Assembly: GCA_023663525.1 (NCBI GenBank)
Contig: JAMPHF010000003.1
Coordinates: 14,185-78,184 of the forward strand
Direction: 5' to 3'
Source: Bacteroides sp.
Lineage (GTDB): Bacteria > Bacteroidota > Bacteroidia > Bacteroidales > Muribaculaceae
DNA length: 64,000 bases
The notes under the pieces are model-generated. The model had not been told where the DNA came from. It made no database searches and saw only the letters and a program-made list of their open reading frames with translations. Shown piece by piece: positions 47,967 to 64,000 of this stretch. Every line of letters starts with the position of its first letter. Positions within the stretch are counted from its first letter, which is position 1. The position numbers and the translations under genes are program-made.

Positions 47967-49268
47967 CTAATCTCTTGCCCTGCGCATACCATAGACCACT
48001 ACGACGATAAAACATATCAGCGGTAACACGAATGAGAGATTGACGGCGGGAAATCCTGAGATGGTGCCGCAATCAATGATTCGGGCCTGCACCGGCGGGA
48101 GGACCGAGCCTCCGAGGATTGCCATGATGAGACCGGCTGCACCAAATTTCGCATCATCGCCGAGACCGTTGAGGGCGATACCGTAGATGGTCGGGAACAT
48201 GAGCGACATGCACGCTGAGACACCCACGAGACAGTAAATGCCCATGCGGTCCTGGAATGCGATGACACCGACAGTCAGTATGGCGGCCGCCGTGCCGAGC
48301 ACGGCAAGCAATCGTCCGGCGTTGATGTAGCGCAGGAGGTAGGTGCAGATGAAACGGCTGCAGCAGAATATGGCCATCGCGATTATATTGTAGCGTTGTG
48401 AGAGGATTTCCGCGCTTTTTTCGTCCATGCCCTCAAGCATGAAGATTCTTGTGCCGTACTGGATGATGAATGTCCAGCACATGATCTGTGCGCCGACGTA
48501 GAAGAACTGTGCTATCACGCCTTCGCGGTAACGGCTGAGGGAGAAGATGCGTTTGAGTGTCCCGAAGAAGTTGATGTCGTGCGACTTGTCACCATTCTTG
48601 GGCATACGGGTCACGGCGATGACAACAAACATGAGCAGTACGACCAGACCGATAAACACGTAAGGGGTGATGAGGGTGAGAAGGTCGGCATCGCGGACGG
48701 CTTCAAACTCTGTATCGCTGAGGTTGGCACGTTCGGATGACTCCATCGGGTTGAGCTTGGCCTGGATGAAGGTCATGGCAGTCCACATTCCGAGCAGTGA
48801 GCCGACGGGATTAAACGACTGGGCCATGTTGAGGCGGCGGGTCGCGGTCGCCTCCGAACCCATCGAGAGGATGTAGGGGTTGCAGCTTGTCTCAAGGAAT
48901 GAGAGTCCGCACGTGAGGATGAAATATGCTATCAGGAAGGGATAGTAGTTGCCTGTCAGCATGGCGGGATAGAACAGGAACGCGCCGCAGGCGTAGAGTC
49001 CGAGTCCGAGGAGGACACCGGCTTTGTAGGAGAAACGGCGGATGAAGATAGCTGCCGGAAATGCCATGGCGAAGTAGCCTCCGTAGAATGCAACCTGAAT
49101 GAGTGTTCCGTCAGTCACGCTCATGCGGAATATTTTCGAGAAGGCTTTCACCATCGGGTTGGTGATGTCATTGGCAAAGCCCCATAAAGCAAAGCAACTT
49201 GTGATCAGGATGAATGGCACGAGATAGTTGACGCCATTGGCCTTTAACAGTGATTCGTTTTCTTTCAT
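47967..49268 (-). CDS. fucP: FucP-like sugar:H+ symporter (MFS)
   Basis: A 433-residue major-facilitator protein with twelve transmembrane segments, closest in look to E. coli FucP (L-fucose:proton symporter). The N terminus has FILITSCFALWGFANDITNPMV (in parts), with the Asn-Asp of ANDIT and the later GLSFLETSCNPYI that match FucP residues around Glu135/Asn162. The gene is the last of the fucI-mutarotase-fucP unit, 50 bases after the mutarotase stop, so L-fucose is the likely substrate. Confidence 0.88.
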   Translation of the reverse strand: MKENESLLKANGVNYLVPFILITSCFALWGFANDITNPMVKAFSKIFRMSVTDGTLIQVAFYGGYFAMAFPAAIFIRRFSYKAGVLLGLGLYACGAFLFYPAMLTGNYYPFLIAYFILTCGLSFLETSCNPYILSMGSEATATRRLNMAQSFNPVGSLLGMWTAMTFIQAKLNPMESSERANLSDTEFEAVRDADLLTLITPYVFIGLVVLLMFVVIAVTRMPKNGDKSHDINFFGTLKRIFSLSRYREGVIAQFFYVGAQIMCWTFIIQYGTRIFMLEGMDEKSAEILSQRYNIIAMAIFCCSRFICTYLLRYINAGRLLAVLGTAAAILTVGVIAFQDRMGIYCLVGVSACMSLMFPTIYGIALNGLGDDAKFGAAGLIMAILGGSVLPPVQARIIDCGTISGFPAVNLSFVLPLICFIVVVVYGMRRARD

Positions 49269-49814: not shown

Positions 49815-51593
49815 TTATTTGTAGATAGGACCGTAGGTTGCACATGCGCGGTAGTCAGAGCCTTCTTTGTCCATTCCGAATGCATTCCATGCTGCGGGGC
49901 GGAAGATGCCTTCGTCCTCGACATTGTGCATGCACACGGGGATTCGGAGTATTGAGGCGAGGGTGATGAGATCCTTGCCAATATGACCGTAGGAAATTGC
50001 TCCGTGGTTTGCTCCCCAGTTGTTCATCACTGAGTAGACATCCTTGAAGGCATCGCGGTCGGGGCAGAGACGGGGGACGAACCATGTGGTGGGCCAGGTC
50101 GGGTCTGTGCGCATATCGAGAACCTTGTTGATTTCGGGATCTACATCGGCAGTCCAGCCTTCGGCAATCTGGAGCACCGGTCCGAGTCCTTTGACGAGGT
50201 TGAGGCGCATCATTGTCATCGGCATTCCGCCTTTGGTGAGGAAGTTTGACGAGAAACCGCCTCCACGGAAGTAGTCACGGTCAGCCGGATACCATGTCGT
50301 GGCTCCAAGACACTTCTCAACATCCTCGTCGGTCATTTCCCAGTGGGGTTTCATTGTCGGATTGCCCTCTGCATCGGTTGATTGCCCCGTGCCGTCGAGA
50401 GTGGTCGCGCCTGAATTGATGAGGTGGATCATACCGTTGGCTGCAATGCCTGTGAGTTCTTTTCCTGTCACACGCTTAACTGCTTCGGGACTCCAGTATG
50501 TGCGGATGTCGCTGAAGAACTGGGCGCGGTTGGTGAGAAGATGACCGAAAAGCATTGCCACGCCGTTGCATGCATCGTTTTCAGTTGCAAGCACAAAGGC
50601 CTCGCGGATACCGTTCCAGTCAAATGATGTGTTCATGAGGGCTTCAGTGAAGTCACCGTTGGGATAGAAGTCTGTCCACTGACGCTGACCCTGGAAACCG
50701 CCGGCAATGGCATTGTGTCCGAGAGCTTCCTCTTTGTAGCCCATCTCAAGGAGTTTGGGATTGCCTTTCATGAGGTCGCGGACAATGAGAGTCAGCTTCA
50801 CGATGAACTCCCAGTCTGCATCCTTCTCTTCGCGGGTCTTTTTCTTCTCGGGGCGATTCTTGAAGTCCTCGCCTTCGCGCGGCTTGCAATATTTTTCTGT
50901 CCAAGCCATTGCTTTGGCATATTCATCATGGTCATATATGCCGAGGGTCATGCGGCGGATGATTTCGGCAGAGTCGATTGACTCGTTGCGCATTCCGAGA
51001 TATTCCTGGAAGAAATCGGGATTCACGATTGAACCTGCGATACCCATGCAGACAGAGCCGATCGAGAGGTATGACTTGCCGCGCATGAGGGCAACGGCGA
51101 GAGCGGCACGGGTGAAGCGGAGAAGTTTTTCTGCAACATCGTCAGGAATTGTATTGTCGTTGAGATCCTGGACATTGTGACCGTAGATACCGAATGCGGG
51201 AAGACCCTTCTGTGCATGAGCTGCGAGTACGGCTGCAAGATATACTGCACCGGGACGTTCAGTTCCGTTGAAACCCCACACAGCTTTCGGCCAGTAGGGA
51301 TTCATGTCCATTGTCTCTGCTCCATAACACCAGCAGGAGGTGACTGATATAGTGGCACCAACGCCTTCACGCTCAAACTTCTCGGCGCAAGCTGCTGCCT
51401 CAGGGACACGGCCGATGGTGCTGTCAGCTATCACGCACTGTACCGGAGTTCCGTCCGGATAACGCAGGTTGGTCGATATGAGGTCAGCCACTGCTTTTGC
51501 CAGATTCATGGTCTTGTCTTCAAGACTCTCGCGTATGCCACCTTGACGCGCGTCAATGATGGGGCGGATACCGATTTTAGGATAAGTATTCAT
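49815..51593 (-). CDS. fucI: L-fucose isomerase
   Basis: A 592-residue enzyme (E. coli FucI 591) converting L-fucose to L-fuculose with Mn2+ in the cytoplasm; also D-arabinose in many members. The sequence opens [27 protein letters not shown] (parts), with [29 protein letters not shown] near 95-123, and the metal-binding C-terminal half includes [19 protein letters not shown] and [11 protein letters not shown]-like [10 protein letters not shown]. It is the first gene of the fucose unit, with its own promoter box (51622-51629), and no fuculokinase or aldolase gene is visible in this window. Confidence 0.96.
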
Positions 51594-51688: not shown

Positions 51689-52387
51689 TCACTTGTCTTT
51701 CCTTCGGGGAAGCCGGCGCTTGTAGCACTGCTTGAAGTCGCAGATACCGCAGGAATATTCCAATTTTTTGACTTCCGGACCGAGTCCGATGACACCGCTC
51801 ACCGATTTTATCGGGGTCATCAGGCTTGACTCCGAAAGAGTGACGCCGCAGGGCTTCTCTGTCTGAAACAACGGAAAGAGCGACTGCTGCTCCGAGACGT
51901 GCCATCCGCAATAGCCCGGGCTGAAGCGGTTGGTGTGGTGCCATCCCGATTGCGAGAGCAGACCTTGAAGTTCTTCTTCCATCCTGTCGGCGGTCTTTTC
52001 AGCTATCACGCTGCCGATTGCATCGGCAATGAACACCTTCACCATGTCACCGTCGGCCATGAGTCTGTGCTGGAGGTTTTCAAACTCCATTCCGGCAGTG
52101 GCGATGAAGAATGCATAGCGTTGCGATCCTCGCAACTGGCGCGCGATGATGCGTCCGATGTTGAAGTCATGACCCATTGCCGAGAGATGGAATGTGTCGA
52201 TGGCGAGTTCCCCGTCTGTTATGAAGAAGCAGAACTGTGGACGAAGCATCCTGCGGATTTCTCCGAGCATATCCGCAGTCTCGCTGACCGTCATCTCATC
52301 GGGGCGGGCTGTCCCGTAGCCCATCTGCTCATAGATCTCAGCGTCGGTCAAGCCAAGTTGGTCGAAGGTCAGCTCACGTTGTATCAT
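51689..52387 (-). CDS. Stand-alone MetH-type reactivation protein with Cys-rich tail
   Basis: A 232-residue protein resembling the vitamin-B12-dependent methionine synthase activation domain. This domain binds S-adenosylmethionine and remethylates oxidised cob(II)alamin. Its signature is RFSPGYCGW (154-162), comparable to the RxxPGYxACP motif of MetH, followed by LFPLF and the TPIKSVSGVIGLGP stretch (191-204). The C terminus adds three cysteines, Cys213, Cys216 and Cys221 (CGICDFKQC), which could bind iron-sulfur or zinc and are not part of the MetH domain. The start codon overlaps the stop of the UroD-family gene by four bases (ATGA), so they are translationally coupled. Its partner is probably the corrinoid domain of the fusion at 57765. 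Confidence 0.8.
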   Translation of the reverse strand: MIQRELTFDQLGLTDAEIYEQMGYGTARPDEMTVSETADMLGEIRRMLRPQFCFFITDGELAIDTFHLSAMGHDFNIGRIIARQLRGSQRYAFFIATAGMEFENLQHRLMADGDMVKVFIADAIGSVIAEKTADRMEEELQGLLSQSGWHHTNRFSPGYCGWHVSEQQSLFPLFQTEKPCGVTLSESSLMTPIKSVSGVIGLGPEVKKLEYSCGICDFKQCYKRRLPRRKDK

Positions 52388-53388
52388 TTGTTGAATTCTT
52401 CGAGTGTTTCAAAGAATGCATCGATGTTGGCCAGCGGAGTGTGGGGTGGGGTGTCGCATCCGCTCGAAAGGACGAAGTTGGGATATTCGCGCATCTTGTC
52501 GAGAAGAGAACGCGTGGCTTCACGCATCTTTTCGGGTGTAGAATCCTTGAACACTGAGACGGGGTCAAGGTTGCCCATCGCGAGTGCTGTCGGGGGAACT
52601 TCGCGTATCACCTCCGCCATGTCGCATTTGTTGCCGAAATGATATGCTCCCGATCCGGTCGCAACCATTGCGCGGGTGCAGTGTCCCGTGTTTCCACAAT
52701 TGTGGAGCACCACGGTGAAGTAGTCATCCTGAACTCTATCGACAATCTGCTTCACGTAGTCGGAGGAGAATCGTTGGCAGTCCTCGTCCGACATGAGTCC
52801 GGCTGCCGGCTCTGCCATCACAACTCCGTTGACCCCTGTCTCTTTCAGCGCGAGACAGTAGCGGAGGATATATTCGGTGCATTTGGCGAGCAGTTTGTGG
52901 GCAGCTTCCGGATCCTGGTAGATGAGGACCATGATCTCCGACATGTCATAGAGTCGTCCTGCAAGCGAGAACGGACCGATGCAACCGCCGAGGACGGGAC
53001 GGTCCGTGATACTGCGTGCGGCAAGGAGATTGGCTTTGAGATACTGTGGGACGCGACCGGCTTTGAGCGACGGCACTTTGAGGCGGTCGATGTCCTCAGG
53101 GGTGTTCAGCAGATGACCTATGACTGCTGGAACCTCATTCTCTGTGAATGAAATTTCTGCGCCGAACGCCTCTGCCTCGACAGTGAGATCCATTATGACC
53201 GTCGCAGCGGCTGTCGGATATTTATTGGCCAAGGCCACGATGGCCTTATGGTGCGTGTCACCGTCACTTACGGCTTTGAGAACGGTGTCGCCGGTTATCT
53301 CTATCCCGGGGTGTGTCATCACGGGAATAGCGGCCACTTCCTTGCGTCCGATCAGCCCCTCAATCCACCGGGTCATGTTCATTTTCAT
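52384..53388 (-). CDS. MtaA-like UroD-family corrinoid methyltransferase
   Basis: A 334-residue UroD-fold protein of the MtaA/CmuA type, whose members transfer methyl groups between a methyl-corrinoid and a zinc-bound thiol (coenzyme M in methanogens). The zinc site is complete: His229 and Cys231 in LHNCG, and Cys311 in SSGCDTPP. The region also shows GGCIGPFSLAGRLYDM (134-149) and MAEPAAGLMS. In a bacterium the natural thiol cannot be coenzyme M unless imported, so homocysteine or another thiol, or folate, must be considered. It leads the two-gene operon with the activation protein; a TATATTTG box (53434-53441) lies upstream. Confidence 0.85.
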   Translation of the reverse strand: MKMNMTRWIEGLIGRKEVAAIPVMTHPGIEITGDTVLKAVSDGDTHHKAIVALANKYPTAAATVIMDLTVEAEAFGAEISFTENEVPAVIGHLLNTPEDIDRLKVPSLKAGRVPQYLKANLLAARSITDRPVLGGCIGPFSLAGRLYDMSEIMVLIYQDPEAAHKLLAKCTEYILRYCLALKETGVNGVVMAEPAAGLMSDEDCQRFSSDYVKQIVDRVQDDYFTVVLHNCGNTGHCTRAMVATGSGAYHFGNKCDMAEVIREVPPTALAMGNLDPVSVFKDSTPEKMREATRSLLDKMREYPNFVLSSGCDTPPHTPLANIDAFFETLEEFNK

Positions 53389-53502: not shown

Positions 53503-53574
53503 CTCCTACATTATCTAATGTGAAGCATTAATACAATTTAATTTAACTCAGTGAGAAATAAATTAACAGATACC

Positions 53575-55419
53575 ATGAGACTCTCAAACCTGCTCGTCGC
53601 CGTAGCTTTGGCCTCCGGCGTGCATGGATATTCCGGTAACATTCATGTCTCGTCAACCCGTGGCGATGACCGTGCGTCAGGCTCGGTCGAGGCTCCGCTT
53701 GCCACTGTCGGTGAGGCGTTGAAGCGTGCGCGCGAGTGGCGCCGGTTGAATGCCCCGGAAGCAAATGAAGATATTAGGATAGTGCTTGAGGGCGGCGTCT
53801 ACAGGCAGACCACCCCCTTGTTTGTGCGTCCGGAGGACAGCGGAACTGCTGACTCCAAAACAATTTTTTGTTCTGCCGAAGGTCAGAAGGCCGTGATAAG
53901 CGGAGGAATGGAACTTACAGGTTGGACTCGCGGATGCGATGACCCAAGGGTGAATCCTCAACTCCGCGATAAAATATGGGTGGCGGATGCTCCGATGATG
54001 GCAAACCGTGTGGTAGAGACCAGACAACTCTACGTTGATGGCCGGAAGGCTGTCCGTGCCTCGCAGTTTGCTCCCGGAGTCATGGAGCGTATGCTCGATT
54101 TCAACGCTGATGACAGAACCATCACTGTGCCTGCACCGTCAATCGACCTGTCAGCCGCGCGTCAGCTCGAAATGTTCGTCCATCAGCGTTGGGCCATCGC
54201 TATTCTCCGCGTGAAGGATATGAAAGTCGATGCGGAGGGCAACATGGTCGTATCTTTCCATGATCCGGAGAGCCGTCTTGAGTTTGATCACCCCTGGCCG
54301 CAGCCCGTCATCAACGGCGAGCGTGGCAATTCCTCATATTTCTTCGCCAATGCACTTGAACTCCTCGACGAGCCGGGTGAGTGGTATCAGGATTATCCGT
54401 CGGGAAAGATATTCTATTATCCCGTTGACGGTAAGGATGTCAACGAAAGTGAGGTGATAGTACCTGTACTGGAGACAATCATGACCGTTGATGGCAGCAG
54501 GGAACGCCCCGTGTGCAATATCGGTTTCGAAAACATCGCCTTTGAACACGCCGCATGGCAGCGTCCATCGCGCGAGGGGCATGTCACACTCCAAGGTGGA
54601 TTCCGTCTCCTCGATGCATACAAACTGCATGTCCCGGGACTCCCTGAGAAAGCCGAGCTTGAGAATCAGGCATGGATAGCACGCCCCGAAGCAGCTATAA
54701 CGGTGTCACATGGCTCAGGGATAGATTTCAACGCATGTGATTTCCGCCATCTCGGTGCGACCGGTCTCGACTACGTCACCGCCGTCAGCAGCTCATCGGT
54801 GACGGGATGCACATTTGAGGATATAGGCGGTACGGCACTCCAGATGGGCACCTTCCCCGACAGAGGATTCGAGACTCATGTGCCATACATTCCCGCAGTG
54901 GCAAAGGATATTTGCCGTGACATCAATGTCAGTTCAAATATTATCCGCGATGCAACCAATGAAGACTGGGGATGTGTCGGGATCGGTGCCGGCTATGTGC
55001 GCGATGTCACAATCGCCGACAATGAGGTCTCTCATCTCAACTATTCAGGTATCTGCGTGGGGTGGGGATGGACAGCCCTTGAAAGCGGGATGTGCAACAA
55101 TCGCATCACCGGCAACCACGTGCATCATTTTGCCGCCAAACTTTATGATGCGGGAGGTATCTACACGTTGTCCAATCAGCCCGGCTCGGTCATCAGCGGC
55201 AACCGCATAGACAATCTCATAGATTCTCCATACGCCACCAATCAGCGTGCATTCTACATATATTTCGATGAGGCTACCGACGGATTCACGGTCGAAGGCA
55301 ACCACTGCCCCGACCCCGAATTCGGCTACAACAGACCGGGCCCTCAACTGAAGGTCGGTGACAATGGCCCGCATATAGAATTGAATCTTAATCTTCGGAA
55401 GAGTGACGTTTCAAAGTGA
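53575..55419 (+). CDS. GH141-like exported beta-helix glycoside hydrolase
   Basis: A 614-residue exported protein; signal peptide about 1-18 (MRLSNLLVAVALASGVHG). Residues about 20-100 form the cap typical of GH141 and related proteins (HVSSTRGDDRASGS, VGEALKRAREW). Right-handed beta-helix repeats follow (ITVSHGSGIDFNACDFRHL, SSSVTGCTFEDIGGTALQM, RDVTIADNEVSHLNY, RITGNHVHHFAAKLYDAGG). GH141 includes alpha-L-fucosidases acting on rhamnogalacturonan II and xylanases; I recognise the architecture, not the specificity. The ATG at 53575 is preferred over a GTG at 53551, which adds no conserved residues. It heads the plus-strand run and sits opposite the fucose and corrinoid genes, favouring a fucosidase. 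Confidence 0.75.
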   Translation: MRLSNLLVAVALASGVHGYSGNIHVSSTRGDDRASGSVEAPLATVGEALKRAREWRRLNAPEANEDIRIVLEGGVYRQTTPLFVRPEDSGTADSKTIFCSAEGQKAVISGGMELTGWTRGCDDPRVNPQLRDKIWVADAPMMANRVVETRQLYVDGRKAVRASQFAPGVMERMLDFNADDRTITVPAPSIDLSAARQLEMFVHQRWAIAILRVKDMKVDAEGNMVVSFHDPESRLEFDHPWPQPVINGERGNSSYFFANALELLDEPGEWYQDYPSGKIFYYPVDGKDVNESEVIVPVLETIMTVDGSRERPVCNIGFENIAFEHAAWQRPSREGHVTLQGGFRLLDAYKLHVPGLPEKAELENQAWIARPEAAITVSHGSGIDFNACDFRHLGATGLDYVTAVSSSSVTGCTFEDIGGTALQMGTFPDRGFETHVPYIPAVAKDICRDINVSSNIIRDATNEDWGCVGIGAGYVRDVTIADNEVSHLNYSGICVGWGWTALESGMCNNRITGNHVHHFAAKLYDAGGIYTLSNQPGSVISGNRIDNLIDSPYATNQRAFYIYFDEATDGFTVEGNHCPDPEFGYNRPGPQLKVGDNGPHIELNLNLRKSDVSK

Positions 55420-55470: not shown

Positions 55471-57735
55471 ATGAAACCAACTAATTATCATTTATTTGAT
55501 TTTCTTGATTTTGATACTGAACTGAGCCGCGACGAGTCGCTCTGGAAGGCCTGCGCTCCCACGCAGGTAGTTGCCAAGGACGGAGATGTGCATATCACTG
55601 TCCCTTTTCAGAAACAGATGCTTGCCAATGACATGGCAGCCGATGAGACAGTCCCGCGCGAAAACCATATACTTGTCCTGCGGCAATACGGCCCGAAGAT
55701 CACCCGTGTGTTCATGGGCTTCGGTGACATAGCCATGAGCGATGACTCTGAGATGCTCATGCTGAATGAGCGGGTGGAGAAGATGCCGCTCACAGTTGAA
55801 TTTATTGACGGCGAATGGGTGATTTCGACAGAGGCCGACGGTGTGCGCCGGGCTGTGATCAATATGCGTGAGCCGATTCTCGACCGCTGGAGCTCATTGC
55901 AGCCCGACCCGCAGGAGACGTTGGATATGCATCTGTATCCCGACGGAAAACGTGAGATCCGTCTTGCCGCCTACGACCATTTCTCGCCTCCACGCTACGA
56001 TGCGCTTCCGCTCGCCTACTGCAAACTTGACGGACAGAAGGAGCGCGCAACTCTCTCATTTGAGTGTAAGCCCGATGAATGTTTCGGTGGAACGGGCGAA
56101 CGTTTTGCCAAGATGGACCTCAGCGGTCAGACTTTCTTCCTGAAAAATCAGGACGGACAGGGTGTCAATAATCGCCGTACATATAAAAACATACCGTTCT
56201 ACGTGTCGAGCCGCCTTTATGGAACATTCTACCACACCACATCCCACTGCAAGCTGTCGCTTGCCGGACATTCCACCCGCTCCGTACAGTTCCTGAGCGA
56301 GCAGCCGCTTGTCGATGCGTTTGTCATTGGAGGTGATACGATTGAAGAAATCATCCGTGGCTACCGCGATCTGACCGGCTATCCCTCGCTCCCCCCGTTA
56401 TGGAGTTTTGGCGTGTGGATGAGCCGAATGACTTATTTCAGTGCCGATGAGGTGGAGGAAATCTGCGACCGTCTCCGCGACGAGCATTATCCCTGTGATG
56501 TCATCCACCTCGACACCGGGTGGTTCCGCACCGACTGGCTCTGCGAATGGAAGTTCAATCCCGAGCGTTTCCCCGATCCGGAGGCCTTCCTGCGCGGCCT
56601 GAAAGAAAAAGGCTTCAGAGTGTCGCTCTGGCAGTTACCATATGTGGCAGTGGATGCGGAGCAGATTGACGAGGCACGTGAAAATTGCTATATCGGCCAT
56701 CTGACGAAGGTGCAGGAATCGGAAGGCTCAAACTTCTCCGCTCTCGATTATGCCGGCACGATTGATTTCACCTATCCTGCCGCTACCGAATGGTACAAGG
56801 GTTTGCTCAGAAATCTGCTTGACATGGGCGTTGCCTGCATAAAGACCGATTTTGGAGAAAATATCCACATGGACGCAGTCTATAAGGGCATGAAGCCGGA
56901 ACTTCTCAACAATCTCTATGCTCTGCTCTATCAGAAAGCCGCCTACGAGGTGACTAAGGACGTGACCGGCGACGGCATAGTCTGGGCGCGTGCTGCATGG
57001 GCGGGCTGTCAACGCTATCCTCTCCACTGGGGCGGCGACTCATGCAGTTCATGGGACGGCATGGCCGGTTCGCTGAAAGGCGGTCTGCATTTCGGACTTT
57101 CCGGCTTCGCTTTCTGGAGCCACGATGTGCCGGGCTTCCATACTCTGCCCAACTTCATGAACTCGGTGGTTCGTGATGACGTTTATGTCCGCTGGACTCA
57201 GTTCGGAGTGTTCACGTCACACATCCGCTACCATGGTACCAACAAGCGCGAGCCGTGGTTCTACCCCGCAATCGCTCCGATTGTCAAGAAGTGGTGGAAA
57301 CTGCGCTACGCGCTTATACCTTATATATATGCCGAGAGTGAGCGTGCGACCGTGAGCGGATCTACACTTCTTCAGGCCATGATATTCCGCAATCTTGATG
57401 ATCCGACATGCCGTCACATCGATGACCAGTATTATTTTGGCGACAGTTTCCTCGTTGCGCCTGTCATGAACTCTGAGAATCGGCGCGACATCTATCTCCC
57501 TGAGGGGAAATGGGTCAATTTCTTCACCGGCGAGGTACTCGACGGTGCGCGCTGGCTGAAAGATGTTGAAGTGCCTCTTGAGGATATGCCAGTCTATGCG
57601 AAGTATGGAACTGAAATCCCATTCTACCCCGAAGCGGTTGAGTGTACTGACGATATGGATCTCTCGAAGACGGTCACAATCCGTGTGGATGGCGATTTCA
57701 AGGGCATCTGGAACGAAAAATTGTTTAATGACTGA
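55471..57735 (+). CDS. GH31 alpha-xylosidase-like glycoside hydrolase, cytoplasmic
   Basis: A 754-residue GH31 enzyme. The catalytic nucleophile is Asp460 in IKTDFGE and the acid/base is Asp523 in WGGDSCSSWDG. The KTDFGE signature and the ARAAWAGCQRYPLHWGGD segment match YicI-type alpha-xylosidases rather than alpha-glucosidases. The N-terminal domain (about 1-290) carries the FGGTGERFAKMDLSG loop of the family. There is no signal peptide, so it would act on an imported, alpha-xyloside-containing oligosaccharide. It follows the GH141-like gene by 51 bases. Activity toward methylated xylose is possible but not visible in the sequence. Confidence 0.88.
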   Translation: MKPTNYHLFDFLDFDTELSRDESLWKACAPTQVVAKDGDVHITVPFQKQMLANDMAADETVPRENHILVLRQYGPKITRVFMGFGDIAMSDDSEMLMLNERVEKMPLTVEFIDGEWVISTEADGVRRAVINMREPILDRWSSLQPDPQETLDMHLYPDGKREIRLAAYDHFSPPRYDALPLAYCKLDGQKERATLSFECKPDECFGGTGERFAKMDLSGQTFFLKNQDGQGVNNRRTYKNIPFYVSSRLYGTFYHTTSHCKLSLAGHSTRSVQFLSEQPLVDAFVIGGDTIEEIIRGYRDLTGYPSLPPLWSFGVWMSRMTYFSADEVEEICDRLRDEHYPCDVIHLDTGWFRTDWLCEWKFNPERFPDPEAFLRGLKEKGFRVSLWQLPYVAVDAEQIDEARENCYIGHLTKVQESEGSNFSALDYAGTIDFTYPAATEWYKGLLRNLLDMGVACIKTDFGENIHMDAVYKGMKPELLNNLYALLYQKAAYEVTKDVTGDGIVWARAAWAGCQRYPLHWGGDSCSSWDGMAGSLKGGLHFGLSGFAFWSHDVPGFHTLPNFMNSVVRDDVYVRWTQFGVFTSHIRYHGTNKREPWFYPAIAPIVKKWWKLRYALIPYIYAESERATVSGSTLLQAMIFRNLDDPTCRHIDDQYYFGDSFLVAPVMNSENRRDIYLPEGKWVNFFTGEVLDGARWLKDVEVPLEDMPVYAKYGTEIPFYPEAVECTDDMDLSKTVTIRVDGDFKGIWNEKLFND

Positions 57736-57764: not shown

Positions 57765-60700
57765 ATGAATACCTGGAAAGAGAATCTTGAGGAAACCAAA
57801 CAGCACTACATCGATTGGTGGAATCATAAAGGCATCGTGCTCAATATGTGGGAGCACTTTCAGAACGGTGTGAAGCCTCATGCCGATGTGCCAATGCCCG
57901 CTGACCCGAAGGATCTCAATCAGAAATGGTTCGACCCCAAGTGGCGTGCCGATTATCTCGATTGGTATGTGGCCCACAGTTCGCTGAAAGCCGACATGCT
58001 CCCTGTCGCAAACACCCAGCTTGGCCCGGGTTCGCTTGCAGCCATCCTCGGCGGTGTGTTCGAGGGTGGACCTGACACGATATGGATTCATCCTGACCCA
58101 AATTACACCGACGATATTAAGTTTGATGAGAATCATCCCAACTGGCTTCTCCACAAGGAACTCCTGAAAGCCTGCAAGGCAAAGGCCGCAGGTCACTACT
58201 ATGTCGGTATGCCCGATCTCATGGAGGGTCTTGATGTCCTTGCGGCAATGAAAGGTACTGACAAGGTGCTTCTCGACACCGTCATGCAGCCTGAAGTCCT
58301 CGAACGGCAGATGCAGCAGATCAACGACATCTATTTCAAGGTCTACGATGAACTCTACGACATCATCCGCGAGGGCGACGAGATGGCTTTCTGCTATTTC
58401 TCCTCCTGGGCTCCCGGGCGCATGTCGAAACTGCAGAGCGACATCTCGACGATGATCAGCGTCGAGGATTACAGACGATTTGTCCAGCCCTTCATCCGCG
58501 AGCAGTGTCAGAAAATTGACTATACGCTCTATCACCTCGACGGTGTCGGTGCGCTCCATCATCTTCCCGCGCTCCTTGAGGTGGAGGAACTCAATGCCAT
58601 CCAGTGGACTCCCGGTGTCGGAGAGCCGCAAGGTGGTTCGCCGAAGTGGTATGACCTATACCGCCGCATTCTTGATGGCGGTAAGAGCATAATGGCATGT
58701 TGGGTGACGCTCGACGAACTCAAGCCCTTGCTTGACAATATCGGTGGCAACGGTGTGCATCTTGAGATGGATTTCCACAATGAGGATGAGGTCGAGCAGG
58801 CAATGAAGATTGTCGAGGAATACCGCTATCGTCCGGCCATCACCCGAGAGGAATCGGACGTGATCACAATCATGTCTGCCGATGCCGGGACGTTTGATGC
58901 GGATGCCGAGGTCAACCGCATAATTGAAAAAATCGAGAGAGAGGCTGAGGCGGAGAAAAAGACCCCGGCGATGGAGGCTCTTGAACTTGACGTGAATTCC
59001 CCGCTCGTGAAAGCGACCGAGGGCAAAGTCCTCGTCCTCGATGGTGCCATGGGCACGATGATTCAATCCTATAAACTGACTGAGGATGATTTCCGTGGCG
59101 AGCGTTTCGCCTCGCATGACTGCTCGCTCCGTGGCAATAACGATCTCCTTTCGCTCACGCGTCCTGATGTCGTGCGTGAAATTCATCGTAAATACCTTGA
59201 TGCGGGCGCTGACATCATAACCACCAATACGTTCAACGCCCAGCGCATCTCCATGGCCGACTTCCGCCTTGAGGGGCTCAGCCGCGAGATAAATCTTGCG
59301 GCATGTGGCATAGCGAGAGAACTTGCTGATGAGTACACGCGACAGAATCCGTCGAAACCGCGTTTTGTCGCCGGTTCGATAGGTCCGACAGCCAAGACTT
59401 GCTCACTGACATCGGAGAGCGTCCAGCCCGGTTGGACCACGTTCAACTACGATATTCTTCTCCACGCCTACGAGGAACAGGCCTCGGCTCTCATCGAGGG
59501 TAAGGTTGACGCGATACTGATTGAGACAATTTTTGATGTCAAGAATGCCGAGGCTGCTGTCAACGGTGCTGTTGCAGCGATGCGCAAGGCCGGCAAGGTG
59601 CTTCCGGTGATGTTGAGTTTCGCAGTCAGGACTTCCGACGGTCATAATATGCTCGGCCAGTCGATTCTTGACTTCATCAAGGAGATTAAGGATTGTCCGG
59701 TCCTTTCAGTCGGAATAAATTGCGTCACGGATCTGTCGGCGATGATTCCGCTGCTTGTCAAATTGGGCGAGGATACGGATTATCTTGTAAGTGTCTATCC
59801 CAATGCCGGATTCCCCGCCGAGGATGGCAGCTATTCACTCTCGGATGTCACACTTCAGCGAGAGATGTGGCCGCTTCTCGACGGTCATGTTGTGAATATA
59901 ATAGGTGGTTGCTGCGGCACGACCGACGCTCATATCCACCGGCTTGCCGAGATTGCCGAGCCGGTCAAAGGTTTGTTCATGTCGCCTCACCGTCCGGGTG
60001 CAAGAGCTGATGTCGCAGTGCAGCCAGAAAGTGACGGCCAGGAGGAAGCACCTTCCGTGTCAGATAGGAATTACCGCAAGGTAGTCCCCGTGGTTCACGG
60101 TGCGGAATGTGAGTGCTGTGCTCCGGTTGAAAAAACCGATGAAGCTCCGGCTGTTGACGATGGAGTCTTCGATGCCATCGTGGCAGGTAAAGGAAATGAT
60201 GCGGCTGCCGCCACCCGCCGTGCATTGGACCGAGGCGAGGCTCCGCAGGACATTATCAACAATCAGATGATACGCGCCATGAGTGAGGTCGGTCAGCGTT
60301 TTCAGGATGGCAAGGCATTCGTGCCGCAGCTCTTGATGGCCGGACGCGCCATGAAGGCTGCTCTCGAACTGCTAAAACCGATGATGGCAGGCGGAAATGC
60401 CTCGACTCTCGGCAAGGTTGTCATCGGAACGGTCAAGGGCGACCTCCATGACATCGGAAAGAATCTTGTGGCCTCCATGCTTGAGGGCTGTGGCTTTGAG
60501 GTGATAAACATTGGCATAGATGTCCCCGCTGAAACTTTTGTTGATGAAGTCCGCAAGAGCGAGGCTGACATACTCTGCATGAGCGCGCTTCTGACTACGA
60601 CGATGACCTACATGAAGGATGTCATTGAGGCAATCGAGGCTGCCGGGCTGCGCGACAAGGTGAAAATCATGGTTGGCGGTGCGCCCGTGAGCCAAAGTTT

Positions 60701-60785
60701 CGCCGACGAAATCGGTGCGGACGGTTACAGCGACAATGCCAATACGGCCGTTGCACTCGCCCGCCGTCTTGTTGGTGCTGAATGA
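57765..60785 (+). CDS. Three-domain fusion: UroD-like, homocysteine methyltransferase and cobalamin-binding domains
   Basis: A 1006-residue fusion not recognised as any standard gene. Residues 1-370 are UroD-like (APGRMSKLQSDISTM, YTLYHLDGVGALHHL), but the MtaA HxC zinc motif is replaced by HLD (257-259). Residues 418-735 are a MetH-type homocysteine methyltransferase, opening LVLDGAMGTMIQ, with zinc ligands Cys653 (GINC) and Cys716/Cys717 (GGCCG). A linker (750-795) holds a CECC motif (782-785). Residues 800-1006 form the cobalamin module: helical cap, then DLHDIGKN with His895 as lower axial ligand. The folate and activation domains of MetH are absent. It should move a methyl group from an unknown donor, through B12, to homocysteine. 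It follows the GH31 gene by 29 bases and lies opposite the stand-alone activation protein. See findings. Confidence 0.85.
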   Translation: MNTWKENLEETKQHYIDWWNHKGIVLNMWEHFQNGVKPHADVPMPADPKDLNQKWFDPKWRADYLDWYVAHSSLKADMLPVANTQLGPGSLAAILGGVFEGGPDTIWIHPDPNYTDDIKFDENHPNWLLHKELLKACKAKAAGHYYVGMPDLMEGLDVLAAMKGTDKVLLDTVMQPEVLERQMQQINDIYFKVYDELYDIIREGDEMAFCYFSSWAPGRMSKLQSDISTMISVEDYRRFVQPFIREQCQKIDYTLYHLDGVGALHHLPALLEVEELNAIQWTPGVGEPQGGSPKWYDLYRRILDGGKSIMACWVTLDELKPLLDNIGGNGVHLEMDFHNEDEVEQAMKIVEEYRYRPAITREESDVITIMSADAGTFDADAEVNRIIEKIEREAEAEKKTPAMEALELDVNSPLVKATEGKVLVLDGAMGTMIQSYKLTEDDFRGERFASHDCSLRGNNDLLSLTRPDVVREIHRKYLDAGADIITTNTFNAQRISMADFRLEGLSREINLAACGIARELADEYTRQNPSKPRFVAGSIGPTAKTCSLTSESVQPGWTTFNYDILLHAYEEQASALIEGKVDAILIETIFDVKNAEAAVNGAVAAMRKAGKVLPVMLSFAVRTSDGHNMLGQSILDFIKEIKDCPVLSVGINCVTDLSAMIPLLVKLGEDTDYLVSVYPNAGFPAEDGSYSLSDVTLQREMWPLLDGHVVNIIGGCCGTTDAHIHRLAEIAEPVKGLFMSPHRPGARADVAVQPESDGQEEAPSVSDRNYRKVVPVVHGAECECCAPVEKTDEAPAVDDGVFDAIVAGKGNDAAAATRRALDRGEAPQDIINNQMIRAMSEVGQRFQDGKAFVPQLLMAGRAMKAALELLKPMMAGGNASTLGKVVIGTVKGDLHDIGKNLVASMLEGCGFEVINIGIDVPAETFVDEVRKSEADILCMSALLTTTMTYMKDVIEAIEAAGLRDKVKIMVGGAPVSQSFADEIGADGYSDNANTAVALARRLVGAE

Positions 60786-60906: not shown

Positions 60907-62511
60907 ATGAATGATTTATCAATGCGGTCAACGGACTGGGTGGTCCTTATCGCATACTTCGTGGTCTTGCTTGCGATTGGCTTGTGGGCCAGTTCCAAGA
61001 CCAAAAAAGGTGCCCACAAGTTTCTTGCGGGCAATTCCCTCAGATGGCACCACATAGGCTTCTCCATGTGGGGTACCAATGTCGGGCCGTCAATGCTCAT
61101 CGCCTCTGCGAGTGCCGGTTTTGCAGCCGGAATTGTCTCTGGCAATTATGCATGGTACGCATTTGTGTTCATCGCACTCCTTGCTTTCGTGTTTGCACCG
61201 CGCTATCTTGGCGAAAAGATCACCACTTTGCCTGAATTTATGGGAAAGCGTTTCGGGGAATCGACACGCAACATGCTCGCGTGGTATACCATTGTGACAG
61301 TCCTCATCTCATGGCTTGCGCTTACTCTTTTTGCCGGTGGTATCATCATCCGGCAGATTTTCGGAGTTCCGATGTGGCTATCGGCTTTCATACTTCTTGC
61401 AATCTCGGCGTTCTTCACTATTTTGGGCGGTCTGAAAGCCATAGCCTACACGAATGTCTATCAGATGGTGCTTCTCATTGTCGTGTCCGCTACGCTGACC
61501 ATTCTCGGTATATGGCATCTCGGCGACCACTCTGTGGTTGGAGGAATCAGCACGTTGGCTGATTCGAGCGTTGTCCCCTCTCACTATTGGAATCTTTTCC
61601 AGCCGAATGACGATAAGGATTTCCCGTGGCTTCCGATTCTTCTCGGTTACCCCATCTCCGGTCTGTGGTTCTGGTGTACGGATCAGTCAATGGTGCAGCC
61701 GGTTCTTGCCGCCCGTAATCTCAACGAGGGTCAGAAGGGTGCGAATTTCACCGGTTGGCTCAAGATTCTTGATGTTGCCATCTATATCATCCCCGGTGTC
61801 GTATGTTTCGCATTGTGGAAAAAAGGTTTCTTCGGCGATGCAATGGTTGAGCCTGACCATGCCTACATGACTCTTGTCACAAGCCTTTTCCCTTCCGGCA
61901 TGGTGGGTCTCGTTGTCGCAGTGCTTACCGCCGCTCTCATCAGCACGATCGGTTCCGCCCTCAACGCCCTCAGTACGGTGTTCACGATGGATATATACGT
62001 CAAAAACATACGCACTAATGCCACTCCGCAGGAAATTGTGCGCACGGGCCATATTGTGACCGTCGTCGGTGCGCTCGTTTCGGTGGTCATCACTATTGCC
62101 GTTGACAATATCAAGGGTATGGACCTTTTCAATGTGTTCCAGTCCGTGTTGAGCTTCATCGCCCCGCCGATGGCGGCTGTGTTTGTGATGGGAGTGTTCT
62201 GGAAACGCTGCACGACGCTTGCCGCAAACGTCATCCTGACTTTCGGCACGATTTTCAGTATCGGTTGCGGCATTCTTTACCTGTGGATAATACCCAATGC
62301 CACTGACCATATCCACTTCATGATGCTTTCATTCCTGATATTCGTGGTGCTGATTCTGACAATGGTCGCAATCAGTTTCATGGACAAGGCCAATGCCGAG
62401 CGTACATCTATGACTGTCATTAAGAACGAGATGTCGGTGGGTGTCACGGTTGCATGGATTGCTCTGGCTGTCGTGATGATAGGTCTCTACGTGTTCTTCA
62501 ACGGACATTGA
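60907..62511 (+). CDS. Sodium:solute symporter family transporter
   Basis: A 534-residue inner-membrane protein of the SSS family (sugar, nucleoside and acid symporters) with about 13-14 membrane segments. The N terminus has DWVVLIAYFVVLLAIGLWAS and GNSLRWHHIGFSMWGTNVGPSM (in parts), and the core contains YVKNIRTNATPQEIVRTGH and TVVGALVSVVITIAVD. The substrate cannot be read from sequence; in this operon the alpha-xyloside-containing or methylated sugar, or a free monosaccharide, is the obvious candidate. It lacks a long C-terminal sensor domain. Confidence 0.88.
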   Translation: MNDLSMRSTDWVVLIAYFVVLLAIGLWASSKTKKGAHKFLAGNSLRWHHIGFSMWGTNVGPSMLIASASAGFAAGIVSGNYAWYAFVFIALLAFVFAPRYLGEKITTLPEFMGKRFGESTRNMLAWYTIVTVLISWLALTLFAGGIIIRQIFGVPMWLSAFILLAISAFFTILGGLKAIAYTNVYQMVLLIVVSATLTILGIWHLGDHSVVGGISTLADSSVVPSHYWNLFQPNDDKDFPWLPILLGYPISGLWFWCTDQSMVQPVLAARNLNEGQKGANFTGWLKILDVAIYIIPGVVCFALWKKGFFGDAMVEPDHAYMTLVTSLFPSGMVGLVVAVLTAALISTIGSALNALSTVFTMDIYVKNIRTNATPQEIVRTGHIVTVVGALVSVVITIAVDNIKGMDLFNVFQSVLSFIAPPMAAVFVMGVFWKRCTTLAANVILTFGTIFSIGCGILYLWIIPNATDHIHFMMLSFLIFVVLILTMVAISFMDKANAERTSMTVIKNEMSVGVTVAWIALAVVMIGLYVFFNGH

Positions 62512-62680: not shown

Positions 62681-63514
62681 ATGACTAACCATGAATTAAA
62701 ACTACAGTCGGAGATCAATCGCCGTCGTCTCATTGAGGTTGTCTATAATGCGAAGGCCGGACATATCGGAGGTGATCTTTCCTGCCTGAATGCTCTTACG
62801 GCACTTTATTTTGATGTCATGAATGTTGACCCGGCTCATCCCGACGATCCCGACCGCGATCGTTTCATCCTGAGCAAAGGTCACTGCGTTGAGGCTCTCT
62901 ATGTGACGTTGGAGTCCAAAGGCTACTTCCCTAAGGAGTTGACCGACACTCTCGGTAAGTTCGGCTCAATCCTTTCAGGTCATCCAACCATCGAAGTCCC
63001 CGGTATCGAGGTAAGTTCCGGCGCGCTCGGACATGGTCTTTCCATCGGTGTCGGTATGGCTATCGCCGCCAAGATGGATGGCAAGTCCTACAAGACATAC
63101 GTACTGATGGGTGACGGCGAGCAGGGCGAAGGCTCTATCTATGAGGCCGCAATGTCGGGCAGTCACTACAAACTTGACAATCTTGTGGCCATAATTGACC
63201 GCAATCACCTTCAGATAAGCGGCAACACGGAGGATGTGATGTCAATAGAGAACATCACCGAGCGTTGGACCGCATTCGGCTGGGATGTCATGACAGTCAA
63301 TGGTGATGATGTGAATGCCATTGCCGCAGCTCTCCATGCCCTTGATTTCAACTGTGGCAAACCGCATCTGATCATATCGGAGACCACCAAGGGTAAGGGA
63401 GTATCCTACATGGAGAATGTCGCAAAATGGCATCACGGTATGCCTGACGAGGAGCAGTATCGCACAGCGATTAGCGAGATTGAATGTCGAATCAATAATG
63501 AAATGAAGAAATGA
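62681..63514 (+). CDS. Transketolase, N-terminal subunit
   Basis: A 277-residue thiamine-diphosphate-binding half-transketolase of the split type. The GDGEQGEGSIYEA segment (about 145-157) with NHLQISG about 30 residues later is the thiamine-diphosphate/Mg2+ motif. AKAGHIGGDLSCLNALTALYF and GHCVEALY are other conserved features. The cognate C-terminal half starts four bases before its stop (ATGA overlap). In this locus the pair would serve xylulose-5-phosphate chemistry, linking xylose release to the pentose phosphate pathway, although split transketolases also occur in fucose/rhamnose or other sugar clusters. Confidence 0.9.
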   Translation: MTNHELKLQSEINRRRLIEVVYNAKAGHIGGDLSCLNALTALYFDVMNVDPAHPDDPDRDRFILSKGHCVEALYVTLESKGYFPKELTDTLGKFGSILSGHPTIEVPGIEVSSGALGHGLSIGVGMAIAAKMDGKSYKTYVLMGDGEQGEGSIYEAAMSGSHYKLDNLVAIIDRNHLQISGNTEDVMSIENITERWTAFGWDVMTVNGDDVNAIAAALHALDFNCGKPHLIISETTKGKGVSYMENVAKWHHGMPDEEQYRTAISEIECRINNEMKK

Positions 63515-64000
63515 TTGCCTGCAGAAAAGCGTTTACAGATACATTGCTTGAATTAGCACGTATCGATAAGGAAATAGTAGCTGTCACTACTGATGCCCGT
63601 GGCTCGGTCACTCTCGGCGATTTTGCCAAGGAGCTGCCGGAGCAGTTCGTGGAGTGTGGTATCGCTGAGCAGAATGCGGTCGGCATCTCTGCCGGTCTTG
63701 CCCACAGCGGCAAGAAGGCCTACGTCTGCGGCCCTGCATGTTTCTACGTGGCACGCAGTCTTGAGCAGGTAAAGGTCGATGTGGCATACAACCGCACCAA
63801 TGTCAAGATTCTCGGCGTGAGTGGCGGTGTGGCCTACGGTGCGCTTGGTGCAACTCACCATAGTCTTCACGACATAGCCGTTCTCCGCACGTTCCCCGGC
63901 ATGAACGTCGTGCTGCCCTGCGATGCACGTCAGACCCGCAAGCTCGTGAAAATGCTTGTCAATCGTCCCGAACCGGTGTATGTCCGCGTAGGTCGTGCGG
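63511..64000 (+). CDS. Transketolase, C-terminal subunit, cut by the window edge
   Basis: The first 163 codons of the C-terminal transketolase half. It begins MIACRKAFTDTLLELARI and has the catalytic glutamate in VECGIAEQNAVGISAGLA (about residue 53). GVSGGVAYGALGATHHSLHD and DIAVLRTFPGMNVVLPCD are typical. The start codon overlaps the upstream gene by four bases, which couples translation of the two subunits. The remainder lies beyond the window. Confidence 0.9.
   Translation, partial: MIACRKAFTDTLLELARIDKEIVAVTTDARGSVTLGDFAKELPEQFVECGIAEQNAVGISAGLAHSGKKAYVCGPACFYVARSLEQVKVDVAYNRTNVKILGVSGGVAYGALGATHHSLHDIAVLRTFPGMNVVLPCDARQTRKLVKMLVNRPEPVYVRVGRA

Follow-up and report, generated by a model that had tools for sequence, protein, structure and literature searches.

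The window analyzed here, a 64,000-nucleotide stretch of a Bacteroides sp. genome assigned to the Muribaculaceae (contig JAMPHF010000003.1, positions 14,185 to 78,184), encodes a 1006-residue protein in which three domains are fused: an N-terminal domain of the uroporphyrinogen decarboxylase (UroD) fold, designated MT1 below, a homocysteine methyltransferase domain of the type found in the methionine synthase MetH, and a corrinoid-binding domain. We regard it as probable, though by no means settled, that the fusion is a one-chain methyl relay whose donor is an O-methyl sugar, most likely 2-O-methyl-D-xylose, a rare sugar of the plant pectin rhamnogalacturonan II (RG-II), and whose acceptor is homocysteine. 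The domain make-up, the fold, the conserved ligands, the gene linkage and the phyletic pattern are observed; the donor, the acceptor, the order of glycoside cleavage and demethylation, and the roles of two helper proteins are inferred. We would give nearly the same credence to a wider statement. The protein would be a corrinoid-dependent sugar O-demethylase that passes the methyl group within one polypeptide to homocysteine, making methionine from a pectin sugar ether without MetH and methylenetetrahydrofolate reductase (MTHFR), and the two-part form that accompanies a GH31 enzyme in Bacteroides and Phocaeicola would be the missing step for the 2-O-methyl-xylose-fucose unit of RG-II. A preliminary description of the window had proposed methyl transfer from a non-folate donor to homocysteine. 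The fold, the conserved ligands, the neighboring genes and three fusion-bearing genomes that have neither MTHFR nor MetH all support this reading. The reading frame, which runs from ATG to stop, and its domains are as follows.

57765..60785, plus strand: three-part fusion of 1006 amino acids (aa), UroD-fold MT1, homocysteine domain and corrinoid domain
57765..58844, plus strand: UroD-fold domain MT1, residues 1-360, candidate methyl-donor domain in which H257-L258-D259 replaces HxC (structure model, fold matches, stand-alone homologues at loci L039-L042)
59031..59954, plus strand: MetH-type homocysteine S-methyltransferase domain, residues 423-730, with Cys653/Cys716/Cys717 (PF02574, S-methyl_trans, E 2.6e-82)
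60159..60377, plus strand: corrinoid cap domain, residues 799-871 (PF02607, B12-binding_2, E 6.6e-21)
60411..60752, plus strand: corrinoid-binding fold, residues 883-996, with D893-x-H895-D-I-G, MtgC/MtbC-like (PF02310, B12-binding, E 1.5e-29)

The extent of the frame, the MetH-type domain with its three cysteines and the cobalamin module with axial His895 agree with the preliminary description; the cysteines and the D893-x-H895-D-I-G motif are invariant among 21 aligned fusions. The folate and activation domains were said to be missing. This is true of the chain, as the Pfam scan of the fusion protein gave no match to the pterin-binding domain PF00809 or to an activation domain, but the activation function is encoded separately (51689-52387, minus strand). 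The homocysteine domain is close to MetH, with about 50% identity. The whole protein is better described as a corrinoid demethylase of CmuA-like layout to which a homocysteine domain was added than as a MetH with domains lost, because MT1 occurs alone and as a UroD-corrinoid protein and because the corrinoid domain is nearest to MtgC/MtbC, not to MetH. The best NCBIfam match of the fusion, MetH TIGR02082, reaches 511.2 bits against a cut-off of 1010.85, and the best matches of the corrinoid domain are MtgC_2 and MtbC, both below their own cut-offs and ahead of MetH.

MT1 is not placed in any family by its sequence. Residues 1-370 have no Pfam family match in the scan of the protein, MT1 scores below the cut-off of the URO-D profile PF01208, a weak URO-D match (E 0.025) was found in one of 27 homologues, and a profile comparison with the neighboring UroD protein UROD2 failed to match. 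Searches of PDB sequences and profile-profile searches also gave no family. As sequence profiles give no family match, we assign MT1 to UroD at the fold level only. An AlphaFold model built from the 27 homologues is confident (pLDDT 92.6, pTM 0.91). Its top Foldseek matches are 4ay8/4ay7 (MtaA, methylcobalamin:coenzyme M methyltransferase, E about 1e-8), followed by uroporphyrinogen decarboxylases; in VIA-align, UroD/MtaA score Z 18-20 with about 300 residues aligned at an rmsd of about 4, and MetE follows at Z 11-13. As modeled, MT1 has the UroD TIM-barrel fold, and the earlier call of a UroD-like domain is borne out at this level. The pterin-binding fold is not among the ranked structural matches, which is no proof of absence.

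The preliminary description was correct that HLD stands in MT1 where MtaA has HxC; it is kept in 91 of 92 MT1 homologues, so that the His-Cys-Cys zinc site of MtaA and of SCMT-type S-methyltransferases is not found in MT1. His-Cys-Cys marks S/Se-methyltransferases, and O-methyltransferases have a carboxylate or non-ligands in place of Cys (Kountz and Balskus, PMC10418091). By this rule, HLD without Cys fits O-type donors over S-type ones. Proteins of the UroD superfamily are known methyl-donor enzymes, including O-demethylases and CmuA; a chloromethane enzyme of this fold functions without zinc, which is also not always required in the aryl-ether O-demethylases of the superfamily (PMC13222342). 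The partners of such an enzyme, i.e., a corrinoid protein, a second methyltransferase and an activator, are all present, fused to MT1 or adjacent to it. Thus MT1 is a candidate corrinoid methyl-donor enzyme (MTI) of the UroD superfamily, with membership claimed at the level of the modeled fold only. We do not claim Met335 as a third UroD metal ligand, since its mapping would rest on strand order alone.

The same domain order was sought across genomes, as had been suggested. A scan of named genomes found 272 relatives, of which 80 were kept, from Prevotella, Muribaculaceae, Phocaeicola and Bacteroides. The 85 surveyed loci lean towards close relatives of the query, and the counts are not population frequencies. 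The intact MT1-homocysteine-corrinoid fusion (928-1049 aa) was found in 68 of them and an MT1-corrinoid protein (598-715 aa) in nine. In five loci no partner of MT1 was scored, one of them being truncated by a contig end, and three are fusions interrupted by a contig end. As dozens of genomes, assembled independently, carry the intact fusion, it is more than a chance product.

The genome of the window, which is 99.86% complete, encodes no MetH besides the fusion and no MTHFR. Its sole PF00809 pterin-binding frame is separate (309 aa) and is likely DHPS. Xylanibacter caecicola and Marseilla massiliensis likewise have the fusion and neither canonical MetH nor MTHFR, and nine further cluster-bearing genomes have both. 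MetH and MTHFR therefore co-occur while the fusion needs neither, which disfavors methyl-tetrahydrofolate as its donor. The MetH proteins of Bacteroides and Phocaeicola are 915-930 aa long and, judging from this length, look too short for an activation domain. A second pointer to homocysteine as the acceptor is genome G457, where a separate 294-aa homocysteine methyltransferase adjoins the activation, GH31 and MT1 genes. UROD2 is the single URO-D family gene in the genome of the window, which therefore has no separate hemE. A MetE-like frame of 390 aa (L133:4505-5677) in this genome was a candidate for a second methionine synthase but was set aside: its PF01717 matches are split and the HxC zinc motif is absent by eye.

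The donor candidate comes from the neighboring genes, which are listed below.

47967..49268, minus strand: L-fucose:H+ symporter FucP (TIGR00885 above cut-off)
49815..51593, minus strand: L-fucose isomerase FucI (TIGR01089 above cut-off)
51689..52387, minus strand: stand-alone MetH-type activation domain, 232 aa, with an RFSPGY motif and a C-terminal Cys cluster (PF02965 E 1.3e-15; motif conserved)
52384..53388, minus strand: UROD2, stand-alone UroD/MtaA-family methyltransferase with His229-Cys231-Cys311 (PF01208 E 1.3e-60; best PDB match MtaA 4ay7; ligands invariant)
53551..55419, plus strand: GH141, BT1002-like, leader peptide visible in the sequence (5MQP (BT_1002) 493 bits, both catalytic Asp aligned; PF21231)
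55471..57735, plus strand: GH31, alpha-xylosidase-like, no leader peptide, probably cytoplasmic (5F7C 1439 bits, then alpha-xylosidase YicI)
60907..62511, plus strand: sodium:solute symporter, conserved beside MT1, probable importer (PF00474)
62681..63999, plus strand: split transketolase pair, the second gene running past the end of the window (PF00456)

Judging from family and motifs, UROD2 is probably a thiol methyltransferase acting on methyl-corrinoid, and the stand-alone activation protein is probably a corrinoid reactivator. In MetH, the RFSPGY motif belongs to the rescue of cob(II)alamin driven by S-adenosylmethionine (SAM). In the 50 fully flanked loci, to which all flank counts refer, MT1 has nearby GH31 and the symporter (44/50 each), GH141 (39/50), and UROD2 and the activation gene (35/50 each). 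Linkage was also checked within one genus, that of genome G230, which we call Bacteroides from its GH31 and MetH types and its overlap with locus L122. MT1 was found in 15 of 120 genomes and GH31 in 22 of 159; all 15 MT1 genomes are in the GH31-positive list, and the remaining seven GH31 genomes carry MT1 directly adjoining (22/22). Throughout this set, GH31 is never inherited without MT1, nor MT1 without GH31, although the genomes are related and the 22 cases are not 22 independent events. BT1002, a GH141 enzyme, acts on side chain A of RG-II and frees the disaccharide 2-O-methyl-D-xylose-alpha-1,3-L-fucose (PMC10154630). The context of GH141, GH31 and FucI/FucP therefore makes 2-O-methyl-D-xylose from RG-II a strong donor candidate, and the hydrophobic leader on GH141 and its absence from GH31 fit release outside the cell and cleavage inside.

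The proposed pathway would proceed as follows. Exported GH141 would release 2-O-methyl-xylose-alpha-1,3-fucose, and the symporter would import it. Cytoplasmic GH31 would split the disaccharide and FucI would take the fucose; demethylation may precede this cleavage, because the 2-O-methyl group may obstruct a retaining alpha-xylosidase. The UroD-fold domain would bind the O-methyl sugar, free or within the disaccharide, and assist cob(I)alamin, bound to the C-terminal corrinoid domain, in taking up the methyl group. Methyl-cob(III)alamin would then swing to the central zinc-dependent homocysteine domain, yielding methionine and cob(I)alamin. Overall, 2-O-methyl-D-xylose (free or in the disaccharide) and homocysteine would give xylose and methionine. 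Oxidized cob(II)alamin would be rescued with SAM by the separate activation protein, and UROD2 may serve as acceptor enzyme where the fusion has two parts and as an additional methyl outlet to a thiol where it has three.

Several observations weigh against this pathway. The model of the full-length fusion is poor (pTM 0.43) and too weak for judging how the domains dock. The best NCBIfam match of the GH31 protein is alpha-xylosidase at 481 bits, below the cut-off of 606, and its nearest solved relative, 5F7C, which we take to be BT0339 of Bacteroides thetaiotaomicron, is filed as an alpha-glucosidase. BT0339 itself has been termed an alpha-xylosidase (PMC10434189). B. thetaiotaomicron carries this enzyme, yet its breakdown of RG-II is reported to spare one of 21 linkages and to leave four sugars unused (PMC6776043). 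MetA was searched for in the genome of the window and not found, so homocysteine may come from SAM recycling and not from de novo synthesis. Separately, we take the uncleaved RG-II linkage to be the methyl-xylose-fucose bond, which is consistent with BT1002 releasing the disaccharide.

The alternative that deserves most weight, although we hold it clearly less probable than the relay from 2-O-methyl-D-xylose, keeps the relay and changes the donor to 2-O-methyl-L-fucose, to another O-methyl sugar such as 4-O-methyl-glucuronate, or to pectin methanol. MT1 has no sequence-close solved relative of known substrate, RG-II also contains 2-O-methyl-fucose, and fucose genes adjoin the cluster of the window; a further point against methyl-xylose is that both GH31 and GH141 are lacking nearby at six of the 50 fully flanked loci. 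The combination of GH141 and GH31, on the other hand, indicates the methyl-xylose end of side chain A and not the 2-O-methyl-fucose in chain B, for whose release GH139 is responsible (PMC10154630), and the link between GH31 and MT1 is complete in the Bacteroides set. A different acceptor is improbable. The methyl group would go mainly to another thiol through UROD2, leaving the homocysteine domain as a secondary outlet. UROD2 with its His-Cys-Cys is retained alongside all three MT1 architectures, even with the homocysteine domain of the fusion, so the main acceptor could differ from homocysteine; UroD-corrinoid forms also do without that domain. Set against this, none of the 21 aligned fusions departs from the zinc ligands of the homocysteine domain, which indicates that the domain is under selection.

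The two other explanations are both very improbable. The relay might run in reverse, with methionine or SAM as the source of a methyl group that the corrinoid would place on a sugar in the synthesis of methylated glycans, as corrinoid methyl transfers are in principle reversible. The neighbors are degradative (GH141, GH31, the symporter and FucI), and the conserved core has no recurring biosynthetic gene. Still less probable is an ordinary methionine synthase using methyl-tetrahydrofolate, with the N-terminal domain as a substitute folate-binding module. It would suit the closeness of the homocysteine domain to MetH, but the top structural matches of MT1 are UroD/MtaA with no pterin domain match, MTHFR as the source of methyl-tetrahydrofolate is absent from three fusion-bearing genomes, and nine other cluster-bearing genomes already have MetH.

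Parts of the proposed relay are already known from other systems. CmuA has a UroD-superfamily donor part and a corrinoid part in one protein and a separate second methyltransferase (PMC13222342). Its donor is a haloalkane, whereas the fusion lies in a sugar-related gene context, carries a homocysteine domain between its donor and corrinoid parts, and does not match the URO-D sequence profile. MtvB, OdmB, VdmB and MtoB are O-demethylating donor enzymes of the same fold that work with a corrinoid protein, a second methyltransferase and an activator (PMC13222342); they differ in their methoxylated aromatic donors and in tetrahydrofolate as the usual acceptor, and no folate methyltransferase is linked to the fusion. 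Type 1 mlp gene clusters also combine UroD-family methyltransferases with a corrinoid protein and lack a folate methyltransferase (PMC10418091), but their enzymes are His-Cys-Cys S/Se-methyltransferases with Ram/RACE activators, while MT1 has no Cys ligands and a MetH-type activator. With MetH the fusion shares the three-Cys homocysteine domain, the corrinoid DxHxxG motif and the activation domain (here a separate protein); it differs by the missing folate domain, the UroD-fold donor domain, the MtgC/MtbC-like corrinoid domain and the domain order. In Ruegeria pomeroyi, the split MtgBCDE system demethylates the nutrient glycine betaine and, by way of a shared corrinoid protein, couples this to the synthesis of methionine (PMC12478193). 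Its subunits are separate, its donor enzyme is of the MttB type (pfam06253) and one subunit binds pterin; the fusion described here is a single chain with a UroD-fold donor domain and has no pterin subunit. The open-licence literature searched, a limited negative, yielded neither a corrinoid demethylase for sugar ethers nor a natural protein in which donor, homocysteine and corrinoid domains are combined like this in one chain.

If the proposed reaction is true, this would be a methionine synthase whose methyl donor is a dietary plant sugar ether and not methyl-folate, and it could account for the use of the remaining recalcitrant part of RG-II by gut bacteria. The conserved cluster of GH141, GH31 and demethylase would make this gap testable in Prevotella, Phocaeicola vulgatus, Bacteroides and Muribaculaceae.

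The distribution of architectures suggests how the fusion arose. A free MT1 protein of about 354 aa occurs in four sampled genomes of the same order, and at L040 and L151 MT1 alone stands beside corrinoid, UROD2 and activation genes that are likewise unfused. A full fusion with 59% identity to that of the window is present in one sampled genome, G503. By taxon, the MT1-corrinoid form belongs to Bacteroides and Phocaeicola, and the homocysteine domain is added in Prevotella and Muribaculaceae. In the MT1 tree the free form is separate (SH-aLRT 99). The two-part and three-part forms are mixed with each other, about four changes lying between them, and support there is weak; the homocysteine domains of the fusions form a single clade apart from MetH (SH-aLRT 99). 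We read these phylogenies as suggesting that free MT1 was fused with a corrinoid domain and that this fusion captured a MetH homocysteine domain once, possibly with later losses.

The UroD-corrinoid gene of G709, a one-contig 6 Mb genome, is split by a frameshift (L150:9628-11530). The two-part fusions at L056 and L107 (match from 10001) have linkers about 70-115 aa longer than those of Bacteroides, perhaps through loss of the homocysteine domain. L056 is filed as Paenibacillus and carries a Bacteroidales gene set much like that of the window, so it is probably a mislabeled metagenome-assembled genome.

The split transketolase pair is possibly part of a D-apiose route, D-apiose being another RG-II sugar. 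Together with a glycerol-kinase-like FGGY kinase and an isomerase with a FucI_C domain, it follows the cluster (window 62681-63999; L050:615-3661). These genes recur near the cluster in L038 and L153, the pair itself lying near GH141 in L038 (genome G503) and near MT1 in L153. The likeness of the transketolase, kinase and isomerase genes to the D-apiose route is our assumption, for which a literature search found no paper.

Other UroD-type donor proteins are accompanied by this same set of corrinoid, UROD2 and activation genes at L043:8577-15709, L048:5132-9854 and L049:8422-11815, which suggests a general demethylation platform of Bacteroidales. At L048:8274-9854, a CobW-type GTPase is joined to a MetH-type activation domain.

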